NCBI RefSeq assembly: GCF_000015825.1
Contig: NC_009051.1
Coordinates: 986,695 to 1,050,694 of the forward strand
Source: Methanoculleus marisnigri JR1
GTDB taxonomy: Archaea; Halobacteriota; Methanomicrobia; Methanomicrobiales; Methanoculleaceae
Length of the DNA: 64,000 bases
Direction: 5' to 3'
Of the stretch, positions 49,686-59,708 are shown piece by piece. Position numbers and translations under genes: made by a program. Each line of letters starts with the position of its first letter. The stretch's first letter is position 1. Below the pieces are notes generated by a model. It saw only the letters and a program-made list of their open reading frames with translations. It had not been told where the DNA came from and searched no databases.

Positions 49686-50537
49686 TCACGGATCCGCTGT
49701 AAAGAACAGAATCGCCCTGCCGTTGCCGTCGATGACCGCGAGGGTGTCCCCGACGATCCGGTAGCCCGCCGCCGACCGGAGGAGGTCGAGGTAGGTTTTC
49801 TCCTGCTCCATGATGCCGGCGGGCTCGGCGCAGGAGGCTTTCGTCGCGATGATCCGCTCCACGCCAATCCCCGTCTCGTTGACCTGGTAGGGGGCGGAGT
49901 AGGCGTTGCACCCGGCAGACCCCGAGACCGTGCCGTCGCCGTCGAAGACCAGGGTGATATCGGTGCCGGGCACCGGCGATGCGACGGTGCTGCCGCTGCC
50001 GGTGGTGTAGCGGGTGAGGTGCCATTCGGTCGCAAGCAGCGGCACGCTCCCGGGCTGCTCTGCCCGCGCGAACGTGAGCACCTCCCGCCCGGAAGGCCCG
50101 GAGATCGTCAGCCGGTCGTCCTCGACCCGGTAGGAGGCGGCCGCCACGAGGAGCTCCCGGTAGCGGTTCTCCTGCTGCACGAGTTCCTGCTCATCCGCAG
50201 GGTAGGCCGCGGTGGCGACGACCGGTTCCACTGCGATGGTGGAGCCGTTGATCCGGTAGGGGGCGGAGTAGAGGTTGCACCCGGCCGACCCCGAGAGCGT
50301 TCCGCTCTCGCCGAAGACGATGAGCGGCGCCGTCCCGTGCAGGGGCGCGACGACGGAGCCGTTGTCGGCGCGGAACTCGACCAGATTCCATGCCGTCCCG
50401 CTAAGTGGTTCGGTGACCCGATTGGCGCTGTCAGGAGGCGTATCTACACCGCCGGTCCAGGCGACCGAGACGATGCACGCCGCTACGATGATCAGGAATG
50501 CAGTCTTCGCGAGTATGTTCTGTCCCTCTCTTTCCAT
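49686..50537 (-). CDS. Secreted two-META-domain protein with altered lipobox
   Basis: The 283-residue protein has an N-terminal hydrophobic segment (residues ~9-27) and two META (HslJ-like) domains, each with the pattern LSGTAWNLVEF or LATEWHLTRY, an SGSAGCNxYSAPY block and a late EQEKTYLDLL-type helix. At the lipobox position the sequence reads VAWTGG, where its four-domain paralog has TAGCTGG, so the lipidation cysteine is a tryptophan (TGG codon). It may stay as an N-terminal membrane anchor or be secreted. Function unknown. Confidence 0.85.
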   Translation of the reverse strand: MEREGQNILAKTAFLIIVAACIVSVAWTGGVDTPPDSANRVTEPLSGTAWNLVEFRADNGSVVAPLHGTAPLIVFGESGTLSGSAGCNLYSAPYRINGSTIAVEPVVATAAYPADEQELVQQENRYRELLVAAASYRVEDDRLTISGPSGREVLTFARAEQPGSVPLLATEWHLTRYTTGSGSTVASPVPGTDITLVFDGDGTVSGSAGCNAYSAPYQVNETGIGVERIIATKASCAEPAGIMEQEKTYLDLLRSAAGYRIVGDTLAVIDGNGRAILFFTADP

Positions 50538-50753
50538 CTCTTTCGAGTAGGCATTGGGAGGGGTAGAAGAAATAGTAACTCATTTCCATCGAGATTCCCT
50601 CGCTTCTCCTCTTCCCCGGAATCGGATCTTTCCGGCGTCGATCCGGGGTTTTCGTCAGGAGAGCGCCCCCAAGAGAGATGGCCGCACCGCCGGGGCAAAA
50701 GGGCAAAATCGGGCAGGGGCCGATCGGTCCCTGCGCCGGAAGCGGGGTAGGGA

Positions 50754-52328
50754 TCAGGGCCGGCCCGCGCTGTACGAGAGCAGGGTCTTTCCTGCATCAT
50801 CCAGGAGATCGAGCCGATCCCCGTCGATATGGTAGCCTGCAACCGAGGTGAGGAGGTTGAGGTACCGGGTCTCCTGGTTCATGAGGCCTTCCGGCTCGCC
50901 GCAGTGCATCTTCGTGCTGATCGGCGGTTCGATGGTGAGGTTCGTGCCGTCGAGCTGGTAGCCGGCCCCGTAGGAGTTGCACCCGGCGCTGCCGGTGACG
51001 TTTCCGTCAGGGTCGAAGACCGCCGTGATCGTGGTCCCGACGATCACCGAGGAGACCGTCTCCCCGCCGGGGCTGCTGAAGGACTCAAGCGTCCACTCCG
51101 TTCCGGCGAGCGGTGCCGGCGTGACCTCCGGTGCCTGCACGAAGAAGAGCAGGTCGGTGCCCTCCGCGTCCGTGAGGATCAGGCGGTCGCCCTCCGTCCG
51201 GTAGGAGGAGACGTTCGCGAGGAGGCCCATGAACGCCGCTTCCTGCTCCATGACCCCCGGCGTCTCGCAGTACATCAAAGTGCTGTAGAGCGAGGAGACC
51301 GTGAGGTCTGCGCCGTCGAGGCTGTACTGGCCGCCGTAGTGGTTGCACCCGGCGTTGCCGGTGACATTTCCGTCGTCAAAGTTTGCGGTGATCGTCGTGC
51401 CGGCGATCACCGAGGAGACTGCGTCTCCGTTGGCGCTGTAGGACTCAAGCACCCAGTCCGTTCCGACGAGCGGGAGGTCGGGCGTTTGTGCGGCTTTCTC
51501 GAAGACCAGCAGGTCGCCGCCCTCGCTGTCGGCGAGGATCAGCAGGTTGTCTTCCATCCGGTAGGAGGCGACTTCCGTGAGGAGCGCAAGGTAGCGGTCC
51601 TCCTGGTCCATGATGCCTTCAGGCTCGCTGCAGTACATCTCGGTCCGTATGGCCGGCTCGATGGTGAGCGCTGCGCCGTCCACGGTGTAGTCTGCGCTGT
51701 AGTGGTTGCACCCGGCCGATCCGCCGAGGCTCCCCTCTGCGCTGAAGGTCACCGTCACGCCCGTGCCGTCAAGAACCGGTGTCTGGGTGCCGTTCTCCCC
51801 GGCGAGGCTCGTGAGCGTCCACCAGGTGTTTCCCGCGAGTCCCGTGGACTCGTCTCCCTTCACGAAGACAAGCACGTCGGTGCCTTCCGCGTCGGTGATG
51901 ATGAGCCGGTCGTTCTCGATCCGGCATCCGGCCGCCGAGCCGAGGAGATCGATGAACCGCGACTCCTGGTCCATGATGCCTTCGGGCTCCAGACAGAGTT
52001 TCAGTGTCTGGGCAATCGAGGAGATTGAGAGGCTCGTGCCGTCGATCTGGTAGTCCCCGCCGTAGCCGTTGCACCCGGCCGAGCCGGTGACCTTTCCATC
52101 AGGGCCGAAGGCCGCCGTGACCTCCGTTCCCGGCAGAACCCCGACGAGCGTGCCGTTCTCATCGAGGAACGAATCCAATGTCCAGGAAGTTCCGGCAAGC
52201 CCGACGGCCGTTCCCGGCGTCGACGTGCCCCCTGTGCACCCCGCGGTGACGATGCACGCCACGACGATGACAATGAGCGATGCCGTCGCGAGGATGAAGT
52301 TCCTGTTCCTTCTTCTGTTCGGTGCCAT
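50754..52328 (-). CDS. Lipoprotein with four META domains
   Basis: The 524-residue protein has a signal peptide and lipobox VTAGC (C31, followed by TGGTST). It then has four META domains in tandem (starts LAGTSWTLDSF, LAGNTWWTLTS, LVGTDWVLESY, LAGTEWTLESF; each with a GSAGCN or GNAGCN block). Methanomicrobia often encode such surface proteins; HslJ-type domains in bacteria relate to heat-induced outer-membrane function. ATG 52328 was chosen because the signal peptide starts there. The 216-bp gap to the two-domain paralog holds nothing clear. Confidence 0.88.
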   Translation of the reverse strand: MAPNRRRNRNFILATASLIVIVVACIVTAGCTGGTSTPGTAVGLAGTSWTLDSFLDENGTLVGVLPGTEVTAAFGPDGKVTGSAGCNGYGGDYQIDGTSLSISSIAQTLKLCLEPEGIMDQESRFIDLLGSAAGCRIENDRLIITDAEGTDVLVFVKGDESTGLAGNTWWTLTSLAGENGTQTPVLDGTGVTVTFSAEGSLGGSAGCNHYSADYTVDGAALTIEPAIRTEMYCSEPEGIMDQEDRYLALLTEVASYRMEDNLLILADSEGGDLLVFEKAAQTPDLPLVGTDWVLESYSANGDAVSSVIAGTTITANFDDGNVTGNAGCNHYGGQYSLDGADLTVSSLYSTLMYCETPGVMEQEAAFMGLLANVSSYRTEGDRLILTDAEGTDLLFFVQAPEVTPAPLAGTEWTLESFSSPGGETVSSVIVGTTITAVFDPDGNVTGSAGCNSYGAGYQLDGTNLTIEPPISTKMHCGEPEGLMNQETRYLNLLTSVAGYHIDGDRLDLLDDAGKTLLSYSAGRP

Positions 52329-52353
52329 ACAACTGCATATGGGCGGGATTGGG

Positions 52354-52362
52354 TGATAAATG
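52354..52362 (-). promoter_or_regulatory. Candidate TATA box for the four-META gene
   Basis: The minus strand reads TTTATCACC about 26-34 bases upstream of the ATG at 52328, in the correct position for a leaderless archaeal transcript. Confidence 0.45.
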
Positions 52363-52538
52363 AATGGTAGGCTACGAAAAAAATCGAACCTATACATGGG
52401 TGGTTTTTCGAATCTGGCGATTATACGTTTTATCCGGGTGCGGTTATCTTACGCTGCCGGACGGCGGAAAGCGGGCCGTTCCTCCGGTGTCGTGGCGTTC
52501 CGGCATCTCTCGCCGGGCACGTTCCTGTACATGCGGGG

Positions 52539-52565: not shown

Positions 52566-53330
52566 ATGCGGGAGATGGATGCTGTGGCAATGTTGATCCT
52601 TCTGCGACACGGCGAGAGCACCTGGAACAGGGAGAACCGGTTCACGGGCTGGACCGACGTGGACCTCTCTCCGCAGGGTGTAAAAGAAGCTCATAAGGCG
52701 GCGGAACTCCTCAGGGACGGCGGGTACACGTTCGGCGTCGCCTATACCTCCGTCCTGAAGCGGGCGATCCGGACGCTCTGGATCGTGATGGACGACCTCG
52801 ATCTCATGTACGTTCCCGTGCACCGGTCGTGGCGGCTGAACGAGAAGGGTTACGGCGTCCTGCAGGGTTTGAACAAGCAGGAGACCGCGGAGAAGTACGG
52901 TGCGAAGCAGGTGCATCTCTGGCGCCGGGCATACGACGTGCGGCCGCCGCCGCTCGCGTGGGACGATCCGAGGCACCCGCGGTTCGACCCCCGCTACGCG
53001 GATCTCGACCAGGAGACCCTCCCTGCGACCGAGTCCCTGCACGACACGCTCGAGCGGGTGCTCCCCTACTGGGAGAGCCATATCACCGAAGATCTCCGGC
53101 GGGGCAAACCCGTCCTGGTCTCCGCCCACGGGAACAGTCTCCGGGCTCTGGTCAAGCACCTGGACAATGTTCCCGACGACGAGATCGCGGGGCTCAACAT
53201 TCCTACCGGCTACCCGCTCGTCTACGAACTGGACGAGGACCTGAAGGCCGTGAAGCACTACTACCTCGGCGACCCGGAGGAGATCGCGGCGGCCGCCCGG
53301 GGCGTCGCCCGGCAGGCAGGGCCGGGATAA
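52566..53330 (+). CDS. gpmA: 2,3-bisphosphoglycerate-dependent phosphoglycerate mutase
   Basis: The 254-residue protein (from the first ATG) has the dPGM phosphohistidine motif [20 protein letters not shown], the SVLKRAIRT block, and [18 protein letters not shown]. It interconverts 2- and 3-phosphoglycerate using a phosphohistidine. Most archaea use the cofactor-independent enzyme, so this bacterial-type gene may have been acquired. Starts at 52575 and 52590 are alternatives; the family N terminus matches the 52590 start (MLILLRHGE). No RBS decides. Confidence 0.92.
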
Positions 53331-53381
53331 CCGGGGCTGGTCTCCCGGCCTTTCCCCGATACATCCCTTCGTTTACCTCCC

Positions 53382-53461
53382 TGTAACACAATCGTAACAC
53401 CGTTCCTGCTATTGTTACAGATCTGTAACATCTTTTGCCCGCCTGTAACAAAACTGTAACA
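53382..53461. promoter_or_regulatory. Array of three phased TGTWACA dyads upstream of a small DNA-binding-like gene
   Basis: Six TGTAACA-type heptamers lie at 53382, 53393 (CGTAACA), 53413 (inverted), 53424, 53444 and 53455. They form three pairs with 11-bp spacing, repeating every 31 bp (53382/53413/53444 and 53393/53424/53455). The central pair, TGTTACAGATCTGTAACA, is a perfect palindrome. The last copy runs into AATTAAATCC, a TATA-like stretch (53461-53470), and the small gene begins at 53492. This looks like an operator array for an autoregulated gene. Confidence 0.82.
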
Positions 53462-53491
53462 ATTAAATCCCCGCCCGGTAAACATCATTCT

Positions 53492-53689
53492 ATGTCCAGG
53501 GTTGTCCGGGTTGACGAGGAGGCGCTGGAGGTCGCCCTGCAGTACGGGAAGAACCTCTCGGCCGGGATCATGAAGATGGAAGAGATGCTCAAAAAACAGG
53601 AGAAGGCCAGGCGCGACTATACCAATATCGAGGAGATGGTCCGCCGGGCGGTCAGGGAAGAACTCGATATGCTGACGGCCAGGTACTGA
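53492..53689 (+). CDS. Small predicted DNA-binding protein (ribbon-helix-helix-like)
   Basis: The 65-residue protein reads MSRVVRVDEEALEVALQYGK and then LSAGIMKMEEMLKKQEKARR, a beta-strand followed by helices as in ribbon-helix-helix DNA-binding proteins or antitoxins, with a coiled tail (TNIEEMVRRAVREELDML). The fold call rests on pattern only. The TGTWACA array just upstream makes it the obvious candidate to bind there. No toxin gene is adjacent; the gap after it is a mosaic element. Autoregulation is an inference. Confidence 0.65.
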   Translation: MSRVVRVDEEALEVALQYGKNLSAGIMKMEEMLKKQEKARRDYTNIEEMVRRAVREELDMLTARY

Positions 53690-54029: not shown

Positions 54030-55529
54030 TCACCCCCGTCCGGTGAGTTCCGTAAGCCCCCTGAGCCACTCGAACGGCGCACCGGCGAACTCCTCCGGCG
54101 TCATCCGCCACACCCAGTTCCCCGTGGTGGTCGAGGGGTAGTTCATCCGTGCCGCGGCACCGAGGCCGAGGACGTCCTGCATCGGGACGATGCACGCCCG
54201 GGCGACCGAGGTCATCGCCAGCCGGACGAGCTCCCGGTGAACCTCGTCCGCCGCCACCTCCCGCCCGATATAGGTGAAGAACCTCTCCTTATCCTCCTCC
54301 GACGCCTCCTCCTCGAACCATCCCCGTGCGGTGTTGTTGTCGTGCGTCCCCGTGTAGCAGATGAGGTTATGGACGTAGTTGTGCGGGATATGGGGGGTTC
54401 TTGCGATCCCCTCGCCGAACGCGAAGAGGAGGATCTTCATCCCCGGGAAGTCGAACCGGTCGAGGAGGGCCTGGACGGCGGGGGTGTTCGCCCCCAGGTC
54501 TTCGGCGACGATAGGAAAGCAGGGGTGCTTTCGGGCGAGCGCCTCGAAGAAGTCTTCTCCCGGCCCGTCGACCCAGGTGCCGCGCTCGGCCGTCGCGTCG
54601 CCCGCCGGAACCTCGTAGTAGTCGGCGAATGCCCGGAAGTGGTCGATCCGGAAGAGGTCGTAGAGTTCGGCGGACCGGGCGATCCGGCCCGCCCACCAGT
54701 CGTAACCGCGCTCCCGGAGTGCGGCCCAGTCGTAGACCGGGTTCCCCCAGAGCTGCCCGGTCCTGCTGAAGATATCTGGCGGCACCCCCGCCACCACGGT
54801 CGGGCGGAGGTCTTCGTCCAGTTTGAAGATCCCGGGGTGCGCCCAGACGTCGACGCTGTCATACGCGACGTAGATCGGGATGTCGCCGATGACCTGGATG
54901 CCCCGTTCGGTGCAGTAGCGCCGGAGGGCCGACCACTGGCGGGCGGCGATGTACTGGAGGAACTTCTCTTTTCGTATCCGGTCGTCGAGCAGTTCGCGCA
55001 TCTCTTTGAGGGCTCCCGTTTCCCTTGCCCGGATATCCTCCGGCCACCGGTTCCACGCCTGCCCGCGGAAATGGCCTTTTAACGCGACGAAGAGCGCGTG
55101 GTCGTCGAGCCACCATCCCGTGCCGTCGCAGAACGTCTCGAACCTGCGATCCGGCCCGGAGTGGCGGAACCGCTCGTAGGCAGCCGCGAACAGCCGTTCC
55201 CGGTACCATGCGGCCGCCTCGTACGCCGCCCGCTCCTCCGGGAACCCGGGCGCCGGCTCCAGTTCGCTCTTCCTGAGATAGCCTTCCCGGACGAGCATCT
55301 CGGGGCTGATGAGGAGGATGTTTGCGGCGAACGCCGACGGGCTCGAGTAGGGGGAGTGGGCGTATGCCGTCTCTGTCGGGTTGAGCGGCAGGATCTGCCA
55401 GTAGTGCTGCCGGCCCCGCTCAAGCGCATCGACGAACCGGTATGCCGCCGGACCGAAATCGCCGACGCCGTACGGTGACGGCAGGGACGTGATATGCAGG
55501 AGTATGCCGCTCCCCCGTGTCTGAATCAT
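54030..55529 (-). CDS. malQ: 4-alpha-glucanotransferase (amylomaltase)
   Basis: The 499-residue GH77 protein begins SGILLHITSLPSPYGVGDFG and has the family blocks YWQILPLNPT, SPYSSPSAFA, the catalytic-region FRIDHFRAFADYYEVPAGDA, EDLGANTPAVQALLDRF and YTGTHDNNTARGWF. It transfers maltosyl or longer units between alpha-glucans, serving glycogen turnover. ATG 55529 was chosen because MIQTRGSGILLH is the usual start. It is read alone, convergent with the small gene. Confidence 0.95.
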   Translation of the reverse strand: MIQTRGSGILLHITSLPSPYGVGDFGPAAYRFVDALERGRQHYWQILPLNPTETAYAHSPYSSPSAFAANILLISPEMLVREGYLRKSELEPAPGFPEERAAYEAAAWYRERLFAAAYERFRHSGPDRRFETFCDGTGWWLDDHALFVALKGHFRGQAWNRWPEDIRARETGALKEMRELLDDRIRKEKFLQYIAARQWSALRRYCTERGIQVIGDIPIYVAYDSVDVWAHPGIFKLDEDLRPTVVAGVPPDIFSRTGQLWGNPVYDWAALRERGYDWWAGRIARSAELYDLFRIDHFRAFADYYEVPAGDATAERGTWVDGPGEDFFEALARKHPCFPIVAEDLGANTPAVQALLDRFDFPGMKILLFAFGEGIARTPHIPHNYVHNLICYTGTHDNNTARGWFEEEASEEDKERFFTYIGREVAADEVHRELVRLAMTSVARACIVPMQDVLGLGAAARMNYPSTTTGNWVWRMTPEEFAGAPFEWLRGLTELTGRG

Positions 55530-55631
55530 ACATCTTCTCCCGATAACTCGCCCTTCTGGGGCGGTCTCCACTTATAGCCTTATCCCGCCCGGGGAGTACG
55601 GTCAAATAGATCGCGCTCCATAGGGGCCGGA

Positions 55632-57327: not shown

Positions 57328-57409
57328 CAGAAGAGTCTCGAGTGCTGGATTTGCGGAGTGCAGGTGTTCGACTGAGGATGGCAGAACAAGTTGGTGTGAT
57401 GCAAAAGCC

Positions 57410-57760
57410 CCGTGCTCTGGACCGTGGTGGCTATCCCCGAGAGGGGGGTGGGGACAATGGGGAGTGCGAACGGAGTGAGCATGAGAAACTCGAAGAGTTT
57501 CGAGGGGGGAATACTCCCCCCTCCCCACCTGACGGTGGTCGAGCTCCGGGCGTTCGCACCTTCGGTGCTCATGCTCCCGCTCTGGCGACCGGTCGCATTC
57601 CGCCCATCGCACTCCCCGTCAGCCCCTCAAAGAACTTCGTTCTTCTCATGCTCCTGCCCTTCGGCCAGTCGCACTCCCCGCGTGGCGATAAGCGACGTTC
57701 CGGCAGGAACGGAGCTGGAGCACCGAAGGTGCGATATCCATGGGAAACCCGTACACGGGC
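57410..57760. repeat. Mini-hairpin mosaic element
   Basis: In the 513-bp gap between the dolichol-kinase-like and GtrA-like genes. It starts CCGTGCTCTGGACCGTGGTG with CTATCCCC, contains GAAACTC GAA GAGTTTC, the GCACC TTC GGTGC hairpin and GAAC TTC GTTC, then CTCCTGCCCTTCGGCCAGTC (shared with the 49-bp tandem array). It ends GCGATATCCATGGGAAA with CCGTACACGG. It is largely the inverse of the copy at 59396. Confidence 0.78.
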
Positions 57761-59395: not shown

Positions 59396-59556
59396 GCACG
59401 GATTTCCCATGGATATCGCCATTGGGGGAGGGGCTGACGGGGAGGGGGGAGTATTCCCCCCTCGAAACTCTTCGAGTTTCTCATGCTCACTCCGTTCGCA
59501 CTCCCCATTGTCCCCACCCCCCTCTCGGGGATAGCCACCACGGTCCACTGTACCGG
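59396..59556. repeat. Dispersed mosaic element, complete copy
   Basis: In the 500-bp gap between trm-G10 and dnaJ. It reads GCACGGATTTCCCATGGATA, TCGCC, then GGGGCTGACGGGGAGGGGGG, GAAACTC TTC GAGTTTC, and ends GGGGATAGCCACCA with CGGTCCACTGTACCGGG. It is largely the reverse of the first part of the copy at 57410. No gene is visible in the gap. Confidence 0.82.
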
Positions 59557-59708
59557 GCTTTGTGCTCGCATCTGCTGTTTCCGTGGTCATTCATCACACA
59601 TCCAGCTGTTTTCCCAGCAAATGCGACCCACTGCCCTCTCGGATCAAGAAGTATGCCTAAAGTGGGATCTAAAAAGAAGATAGCTGATAAAGCAAGAGGG
59701 ATCCCCCC

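Follow-up and report, generated by a model that had tools for sequence, protein, structure and literature searches.

In the archaeon Methanoculleus marisnigri JR1, a gene for a 65-residue protein is preceded by six copies of a heptad, TGTWACA, set out at strikingly regular intervals. This raises the question of which protein reads these sites and with what effect on the gene behind them. We addressed it by computational analysis of a window of 64,000 nucleotides, that is, the whole stretch of DNA around the gene, and by comparison with related genomes and viruses. Transcription control in the Methanomicrobiales, the order to which this species belongs, has been little explored.

Three phased heptad pairs precede a small gene

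By direct reading, the six TGTWACA-type heptads form three pairs, none with an assigned strand, and lie 11 bp apart, centre to centre, within each pair. The distal pair is TGTAACA-caat-CGTAACA (53382..53399; single heptads at 53382-53388 and 53393-53399), the middle pair TGTTACA-gatc-TGTAACA (53413..53430; 53413-53419 and 53424-53430), and the proximal pair TGTAACA-aaac-TGTAACA (53444..53461; 53444-53450 and 53455-53461). The pairs start at 53382, 53413, and 53444, giving a period of exactly 31 bp. An earlier note on this DNA had described six heptads arranged as three 18-bp dyads with a 31-bp period and a central dyad forming a perfect palindrome. The six sites, the three pairs, the period, and the perfect palindrome of the central pair, TGTTACAGATCTGTAACA, were all borne out. 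The term dyad does not hold for the outer two pairs, which are direct repeats, the inverted repeat being restricted to the middle pair, and one heptad of the six deviates from the consensus (CGTAACA). Symmetry resides in the individual heptad (TGT-W-ACA), which fits the expectation of one protein dimer per heptad.

The array is far beyond chance. Seven matches at ≤3 mismatches were found in the window, versus 0.6 expected, and none of 100 shuffles reached seven. In a genome-wide scan, which the earlier note had proposed, TGTWACA-N4-TGTWACA at 0-1 mismatch was found at these three pairs only in the complete genome of 2,478,101 bases.

The array ends at 53461 and the ATG begins at 53492, with 30 bp in between. 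Directly after the last heptad, so that the proximal pair abuts it, comes a TATA-like element, ATTAAATC (53462..53469, + strand), whose centre is located ~26 bp before the ATG and which presumably serves the small gene. This is the TATA-like stretch beside which the earlier note had the array end. The TATA-to-ATG distance implies that the transcript of the 65-residue protein gene would be leaderless. On the upstream side lies a histidine-phosphatase/phosphoglycerate-mutase-like gene (52566..53330, + strand, Pfam PF00300), and on the downstream side a convergent 4-alpha-glucanotransferase gene (54030..55571, - strand, Pfam PF02446); neither is part of the system.

The heptads are conserved together with the gene

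Homologues of the small protein were found in 77 of the 232 genomes of the order, the class-level search set consisting of the same 232 genomes; most genomes of the order thus have none. No homologue was detected outside the order in a phylum sample of 393 genomes. In most of the 77 carrier genomes, and on virus contigs as well, the array precedes the gene.

Within Methanoculleus, all three pairs were kept at 29 of the 29 loci with readable upstream DNA, with a unit spacing of 30-32 bp, and the conserved spacing in close relatives that the earlier note had looked to was therefore present. The pair corresponding to the distal one carried 0-3 mismatches at all 29 loci, and the middle pair 0-4. 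Overall, the three best pairs showed a mean of 2.2 mismatches in 42 bases, as compared with 18.0 (minimum 10) for shuffled upstream DNA and 21.2 (minimum 14) for 1,424 other windows taken from the same loci. The proximal heptads had a mean information content of 1.6 bits per base, and the adjoining upstream 13-bp spacer 0.4 bits. Conservation of the heptads, and not of the spacers, indicates selection on the sites rather than general similarity. As for the heptad itself, its GTWAC core was nearly invariant among 389 heptads selected at ≤1 mismatch.

The array, or at least some heptads, was also found before homologues with 35-55% identity in three further families of the order, f2, f4, and f6. 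There, the within-pair spacing was mostly 10 bp (N3) instead of 11 bp (N4), and the pairs still repeated at ~31-32 bp. Because relatives vary in within-pair spacing (10 or 11 bp) and in pair orientation, the conserved unit appears to be the heptad plus its spacing, and not the 18-bp dyad.

The array is a single locus in its own genome, and there is nearly always one per relative. Among 61 relatives searched, every perfect N4 pair was at the gene, with the exception of one in genome G018. Three high-quality Methanoculleus genomes devoid of the gene (G002, G012, and G023) had no perfect pair either, and none was found in the sampled genomes of the gene-less families f3 and f5. In family f6, we inspected perfect pairs away from the gene as candidate trans targets, and none was convincing as an operator. 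At loci L063 and L392, the stray pair lies in a stem beside a tRNA, apparently in an rRNA spacer; at L062 and L064, its start coincides with a stop codon and it looks like a terminator hairpin; at L401 and L402, it falls in GC-rich intergenic DNA; the others are near gene ends.

The small protein is a likely ribbon-helix-helix protein

The 65-residue protein (53492..53689, + strand) is our candidate autorepressor, with ribbon-helix-helix (RHH)-like features and an additional C-terminal helix. Residues S2, V4, and R6 were invariant in 32 homologues, and in a wider set V4 and R6 remained invariant and S2 nearly so. They occupy alternate positions along the predicted N-terminal strand, and we infer that they face the DNA.

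AlphaFold predictions, made for single chains only, gave for a virus-led alignment an extended segment (residues 1-8) followed by helices at residues 9-18, 22-36, and 41-63 (pLDDT 87). The model of the window protein began in the same way but merged the last two helices into one. The predicted topology fits that of RHH proteins or of RH3 proteins, which carry a third helix in addition to the RHH. An N-terminal strand followed by two helices, as expected of an RHH protein, is seen in the AlphaFold model, and so is, in the alignment, the conservation of alternating strand residues. In RHH proteins, the strand becomes paired only in the intertwined dimer, as a two-stranded sheet. Aligning profiles with hhalign against RelB, NikR, and CopG, three classic RHH proteins, gave in-register yet weak matches (27-56% probability). 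A Pfam RHH_1 match scored 13.4 bits against a cut-off of 20.5 and covered residues 37-59, out of register; we treated it as noise, since this is the wrong place for the RHH strand. Pfam, NCBIfam, and PHROG gave no convincing family match for the small protein, Foldseek run with both monomer models no meaningful match, and sequence searches of the PDB nothing useful. Hence, the strand-helix-helix reading put forward in the earlier note is backed by the AlphaFold topology and by the in-register profile alignment, and received no confirmation from family libraries or Foldseek. Membership of the RHH superfamily is likely. The protein family is undescribed; the principle of autoregulation is already known.

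A regulatory meaning of the array, also advanced in the earlier note, is well supported by these comparisons, namely by an array that is conserved before the gene in viruses and in the majority of the 77 carrier genomes, by the unconserved spacers, and by the invariant residues at alternate strand positions.

The array is set against the core promoter in two layouts

In nearly all array-bearing loci, the array was placed against the core promoter of its own gene, with either the proximal pair at about -31 or a pair over the ATG. In Methanoculleus and in family f6, the TATA-like box lies behind all three pairs and immediately after the last of them, which typically ends at about -31. As a rule, this box is recognizable in Methanoculleus, nearly all loci having a TAAATC- or ATATATC-like stretch immediately behind the last heptad. 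In f4, most of f2, and the viruses, the TATA-like box has one pair downstream of it, whose last heptad extends into the start codon (TGTAACATG). In either layout, a filled array would cover the BRE/TATA region, the start site, or both, which makes repression the likelier sign of regulation.

The array-gene unit is found before different genes

Like the upstream neighbours of the small gene, which differ between relatives, the genes behind it change from one lineage to another. In Methanoculleus, the small gene stands alone, with no co-directional partner. In most f2 genera, a phosphoesterase-type gene (410-465 aa) starts within ~20 bases after it, and no homologue of that gene was found in 35 Methanoculleus genomes. 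In family f6, the next gene is Asn-synthase-like (315-350 aa). With downstream genes differing by lineage, the picture is that of a portable cassette, in which the repressor-array unit would be constant and the gene that it drives lineage-specific. At the f6 loci L066-L067 and L404-L405, we noticed that the Asn-synthase-like gene has no recognizable glutaminase domain and that its end often touches the small gene.

The earlier note had stated that related genomes with the gene and scrambled sites would speak against its reading. As far as the gene's own promoter is concerned, such a situation was encountered at eight f2 loci, where the gene is kept and the 190 bp upstream of it contain no heptad at all. 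In four genomes of genus g25 (G111, G113, G115, and G116), pairs reappeared 10-45 bp before the ATG of the neighbouring gene. This neighbour occupies the position of the f2 partner gene, whose product has a calcineurin-like phosphoesterase domain at its C-terminus (the domain was tested in G037 and G057 only); the neighbour is 411-416 aa long where intact and is broken in G111. In g25, the array thus seems to have moved to the promoter of the phosphoesterase gene. In two g12 genomes (G121 and G123), a phased array was found on its own, flanked on both sides by the 3' ends of convergent genes and with no visible promoter; in G121, it lies 175 kb from the small protein gene. Since the sites reappear elsewhere in six of these genomes, the operator finding is qualified rather than refuted. 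Moreover, displaced and free-standing arrays suggest that the array is itself a target and more than a feature of the leader.

The two g12 arrays (L384:4984-5062 and L385:4925-5005) have the 3' end of a biotin-carboxylase/pycA-like gene as their neighbour, and neither a promoter nor an ORF is evident at them. Heptad pairs were also noticed within the few hundred bases upstream of an XerA-like tyrosine recombinase gene in the g25 genomes G112 and G113 (L386:5157-5410 and L387:5050-5185); we did not retain them as an array, because the pairs are imperfect and lack the 31-bp phasing.

Copies in probable viruses

Three IMG/VR contigs (L073, L074, and L075) encode homologues, 43-44% identical, behind three-unit arrays. 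On L073, PHROG assignments pointed to a contractile-tail module, with a tape measure protein, a tail fibre or Dit-like protein, a baseplate hub, and a baseplate wedge. On L074, PHROG placed the homologue next to a tail sheath gene, and on L075 inspection revealed the same neighbours as on L073. A further contig, L176, which bears a terminase gene, was reached via the DNA pattern alone. A protein encoded on it shares the strand motif and shows weak similarity (E = 0.003); a heptad lies immediately in front of this protein's gene and overlaps the ATG. In this region (L176:2030-2090), several TGTTACA/TGTAACA heptads run into the ATG of the protein, MGKVTRLKDDV..., a possible and much more distant relative. 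In pattern scans of the whole viral collection, the matches listed were mostly due to chance, and among them a relative was also encoded by L176, L241 (from the L075 contig), and L368 (the same sequence as L073). A weak virus match, L375, was discarded, having a different N-terminus and no heptad. No relative of the small protein was found among GenBank phages or PLSDB plasmids. Altogether, the array-gene cassette appears to sit in tailed, probable viruses of methane-producing archaea.

One might then imagine that methanogen chromosomes and tailed viruses share one portable cassette and one DNA code, and that the chromosomal copy binds and silences the matching tail-module promoter of an incoming virus, a repressor-type immunity derived from a domesticated viral switch. 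We regard this as rather improbable. If true, it would explain why the gene is patchily spread, why it stands alone and autoregulated in Methanoculleus, and why there is no chromosomal regulon.

Probable cooperative autorepression and its alternatives

We consider it probable that the locus is a self-contained cassette for cooperative autorepression by promoter occlusion. Each dimer of the putative RHH-type protein would recognize one near-palindromic TGTWACA heptad. Two dimers one helical turn apart would make up a pair, and with pairs every three turns up to six dimers could be aligned along the same side of the double helix. The pair ending at -31 would overlap the entry point of TFB/TBP (BRE/TATA) of a leaderless promoter. 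Owing to this overlap, cooperative filling of the array would block assembly of the pre-initiation complex and hold the amount of protein to a low set point. Wherever a lineage has co-directional genes downstream, those genes would come under the same switch. Archaeal viral RHH proteins have been reported to repress their own promoters by occlusion and are thought to oligomerize along several sites (PMC5569661). Weighing against this reading are the eight f2 loci without heptads at their own promoter, the two free-standing arrays with no evident promoter, and an RHH membership that family libraries and Foldseek did not confirm.

Sites upstream of a TATA box, as all three pairs are in Methanoculleus and f6, could also be compatible with activation. 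The array would still be the operator of the small protein, and the protein would activate, or switch between activation and repression, by recruiting TBP/TFB. As a matter of precedent, AvtR both activates and represses one promoter in a concentration-dependent manner (PMC5569661). However, a dimer bound to the proximal pair, right against the TATA-like box, should be in the way of TFB/TBP, and in most of f2, f4, and the viruses a pair covers the start codon and the predicted start site, as is typical of repression. We thus hold activation to be unlikely. That some other, global regulator uses the array, its position before the small gene being incidental, would be in line with array and gene promoter being uncoupled at eight loci and with binding by the small protein itself being a prediction. 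Yet the M. marisnigri genome has no other close site, and thus no regulon that a global factor could serve; absence of the gene goes with absence of the array, and viruses carry both; and a scan for the DNA pattern alone led to a more distant possible homologue behind heptads (L176). This leaves a global regulator extremely unlikely.

The earlier note had likened the array to iterated operators or to centromere-like sites. The conserved coupling of array and gene favours the operator part of this comparison. For the centromere part, the protein would segregate or anchor DNA, or organize the chromosome, and control of its own gene would be secondary. RHH centromere proteins do use iterated heptads, omega of pSM19035 being an example (PMC9499535), the phased arrays of G121 and G123 are free-standing, and the distance of the gene from the main orc1 gene amounts to 37-48% of the genome in 11 of the 14 complete or nearly complete genomes compared. 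Nevertheless, no ParA or SegA gene is found next to it, the neighbours being gpm/malQ and others, and the heptads are gapped, whereas omega needs at least four contiguous ones (PMC9499535). There is one locus here as against the tens of TCTAGASTCTAGA sites of SegB (PMC12284271), so that neither the ATPase partner nor the contiguous heptads or many sites of RHH partition systems were found. Besides, the gene is missing from most of the order and is usually far from the origin gene, a pattern that is itself clearly broken in two genomes (14% and 17%) and drawn from related genomes. A centromere-like role thus seems very unlikely. The third exception among the 14 distances is 33%, and the whole series is confounded by kinship. 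An antitoxin role, with the downstream gene encoding the partner of an autoregulated toxin-antitoxin pair, is hardly credible. Antitoxins are often laid out in this way, as small RHH-like proteins that have a C-terminal helix and an iterated operator, and in f2 and f6 a second gene comes immediately after; but the partner depends on the lineage, its phosphoesterase-type and Asn-synthase-like versions match no known toxin family, and Methanoculleus has no partner and, in none of its genomes, a homologue of the f2 one. The conserved adjacent toxin gene of a type II toxin-antitoxin system was therefore not found.

The predicted operator is precise enough to be tested in one gel-shift experiment. 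Its geometry, with pairs at one turn repeated at three and a fixed position against the TATA-like box, would make a clean natural system in which to study how RHH-type oligomers may block an archaeal promoter. With the same switch before different genes in different lineages, and in virus tail modules, the system also lends itself to studies of the movement of a regulatory cassette and of shifts in what it controls.

Comparison with known RHH systems

On the best-supported account, the system would work like known RHH autorepressors. In Arc/MetJ-type repressors, dimers about one turn apart cooperate on one operator, with a protein strand inserted in the major groove. The proposed arrangement of dimers is similar, with the difference that Arc/MetJ operators are single clusters, whereas three clusters with three-turn spacing are set here against an archaeal TATA-like box.

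The omega (ParB) protein of plasmid pSM19035 binds contiguous WATCACW heptads, in 7-10 copies at six sites, and has a ParA partner (PMC9499535). It shares with our system iterated heptads, one dimer per heptad (as proposed here), and sites overlapping promoters; in contrast, TGTWACA heptads come in pairs at 10-11 bp, with a skipped turn, and there is no ParA. SegB of the Sulfolobales is an archaeal RHH protein with a SegA partner, which recognizes TCTAGASTCTAGA at tens of chromosomal sites (PMC12284271). It binds upstream of its own operon, as the small protein would, but the many sites and the SegA partner have no counterpart at our single locus.

Closer to the virus copies are SvtR and F55, small RHH autoregulators of Sulfolobus viruses. 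F55 binds tandem ATAGATAG repeats next to promoters, and SvtR, whose site is an imperfect inverted repeat, binds most tightly near a tail-fibre gene (PMC5569661). The virus copies of the small gene likewise lie among tail genes. Unlike the array, which is one locus with pairs phased at 31 bp, SvtR and F55 have other site sequences and several targets each. E73 of a Sulfolobus spindle-shaped virus, a 73-residue protein with an RH3 fold, reportedly binds DNA with no apparent specificity (PMC5569661). The small protein resembles it in size, in the predicted strand, two RHH helices, and added C-terminal helix, and in being carried by archaeal mobile elements. We detected no sequence relationship between the two, and the small-protein family differs from E73 in having a sharp, conserved candidate operator. 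What is new here is the undescribed family, the three-turn phasing of pairs locked to an archaeal core promoter, and the reuse of the unit before different genes and in viruses.

Incidentally, two other repeats were noticed in the window. A 123-bp sequence occurs twice in inverted orientation (57404-57526 and 59439-59561) with 97% identity, and two adjacent genes at 49686-52397 consist of tandem lipoprotein-like domain repeats (a 4-copy DNA repeat).
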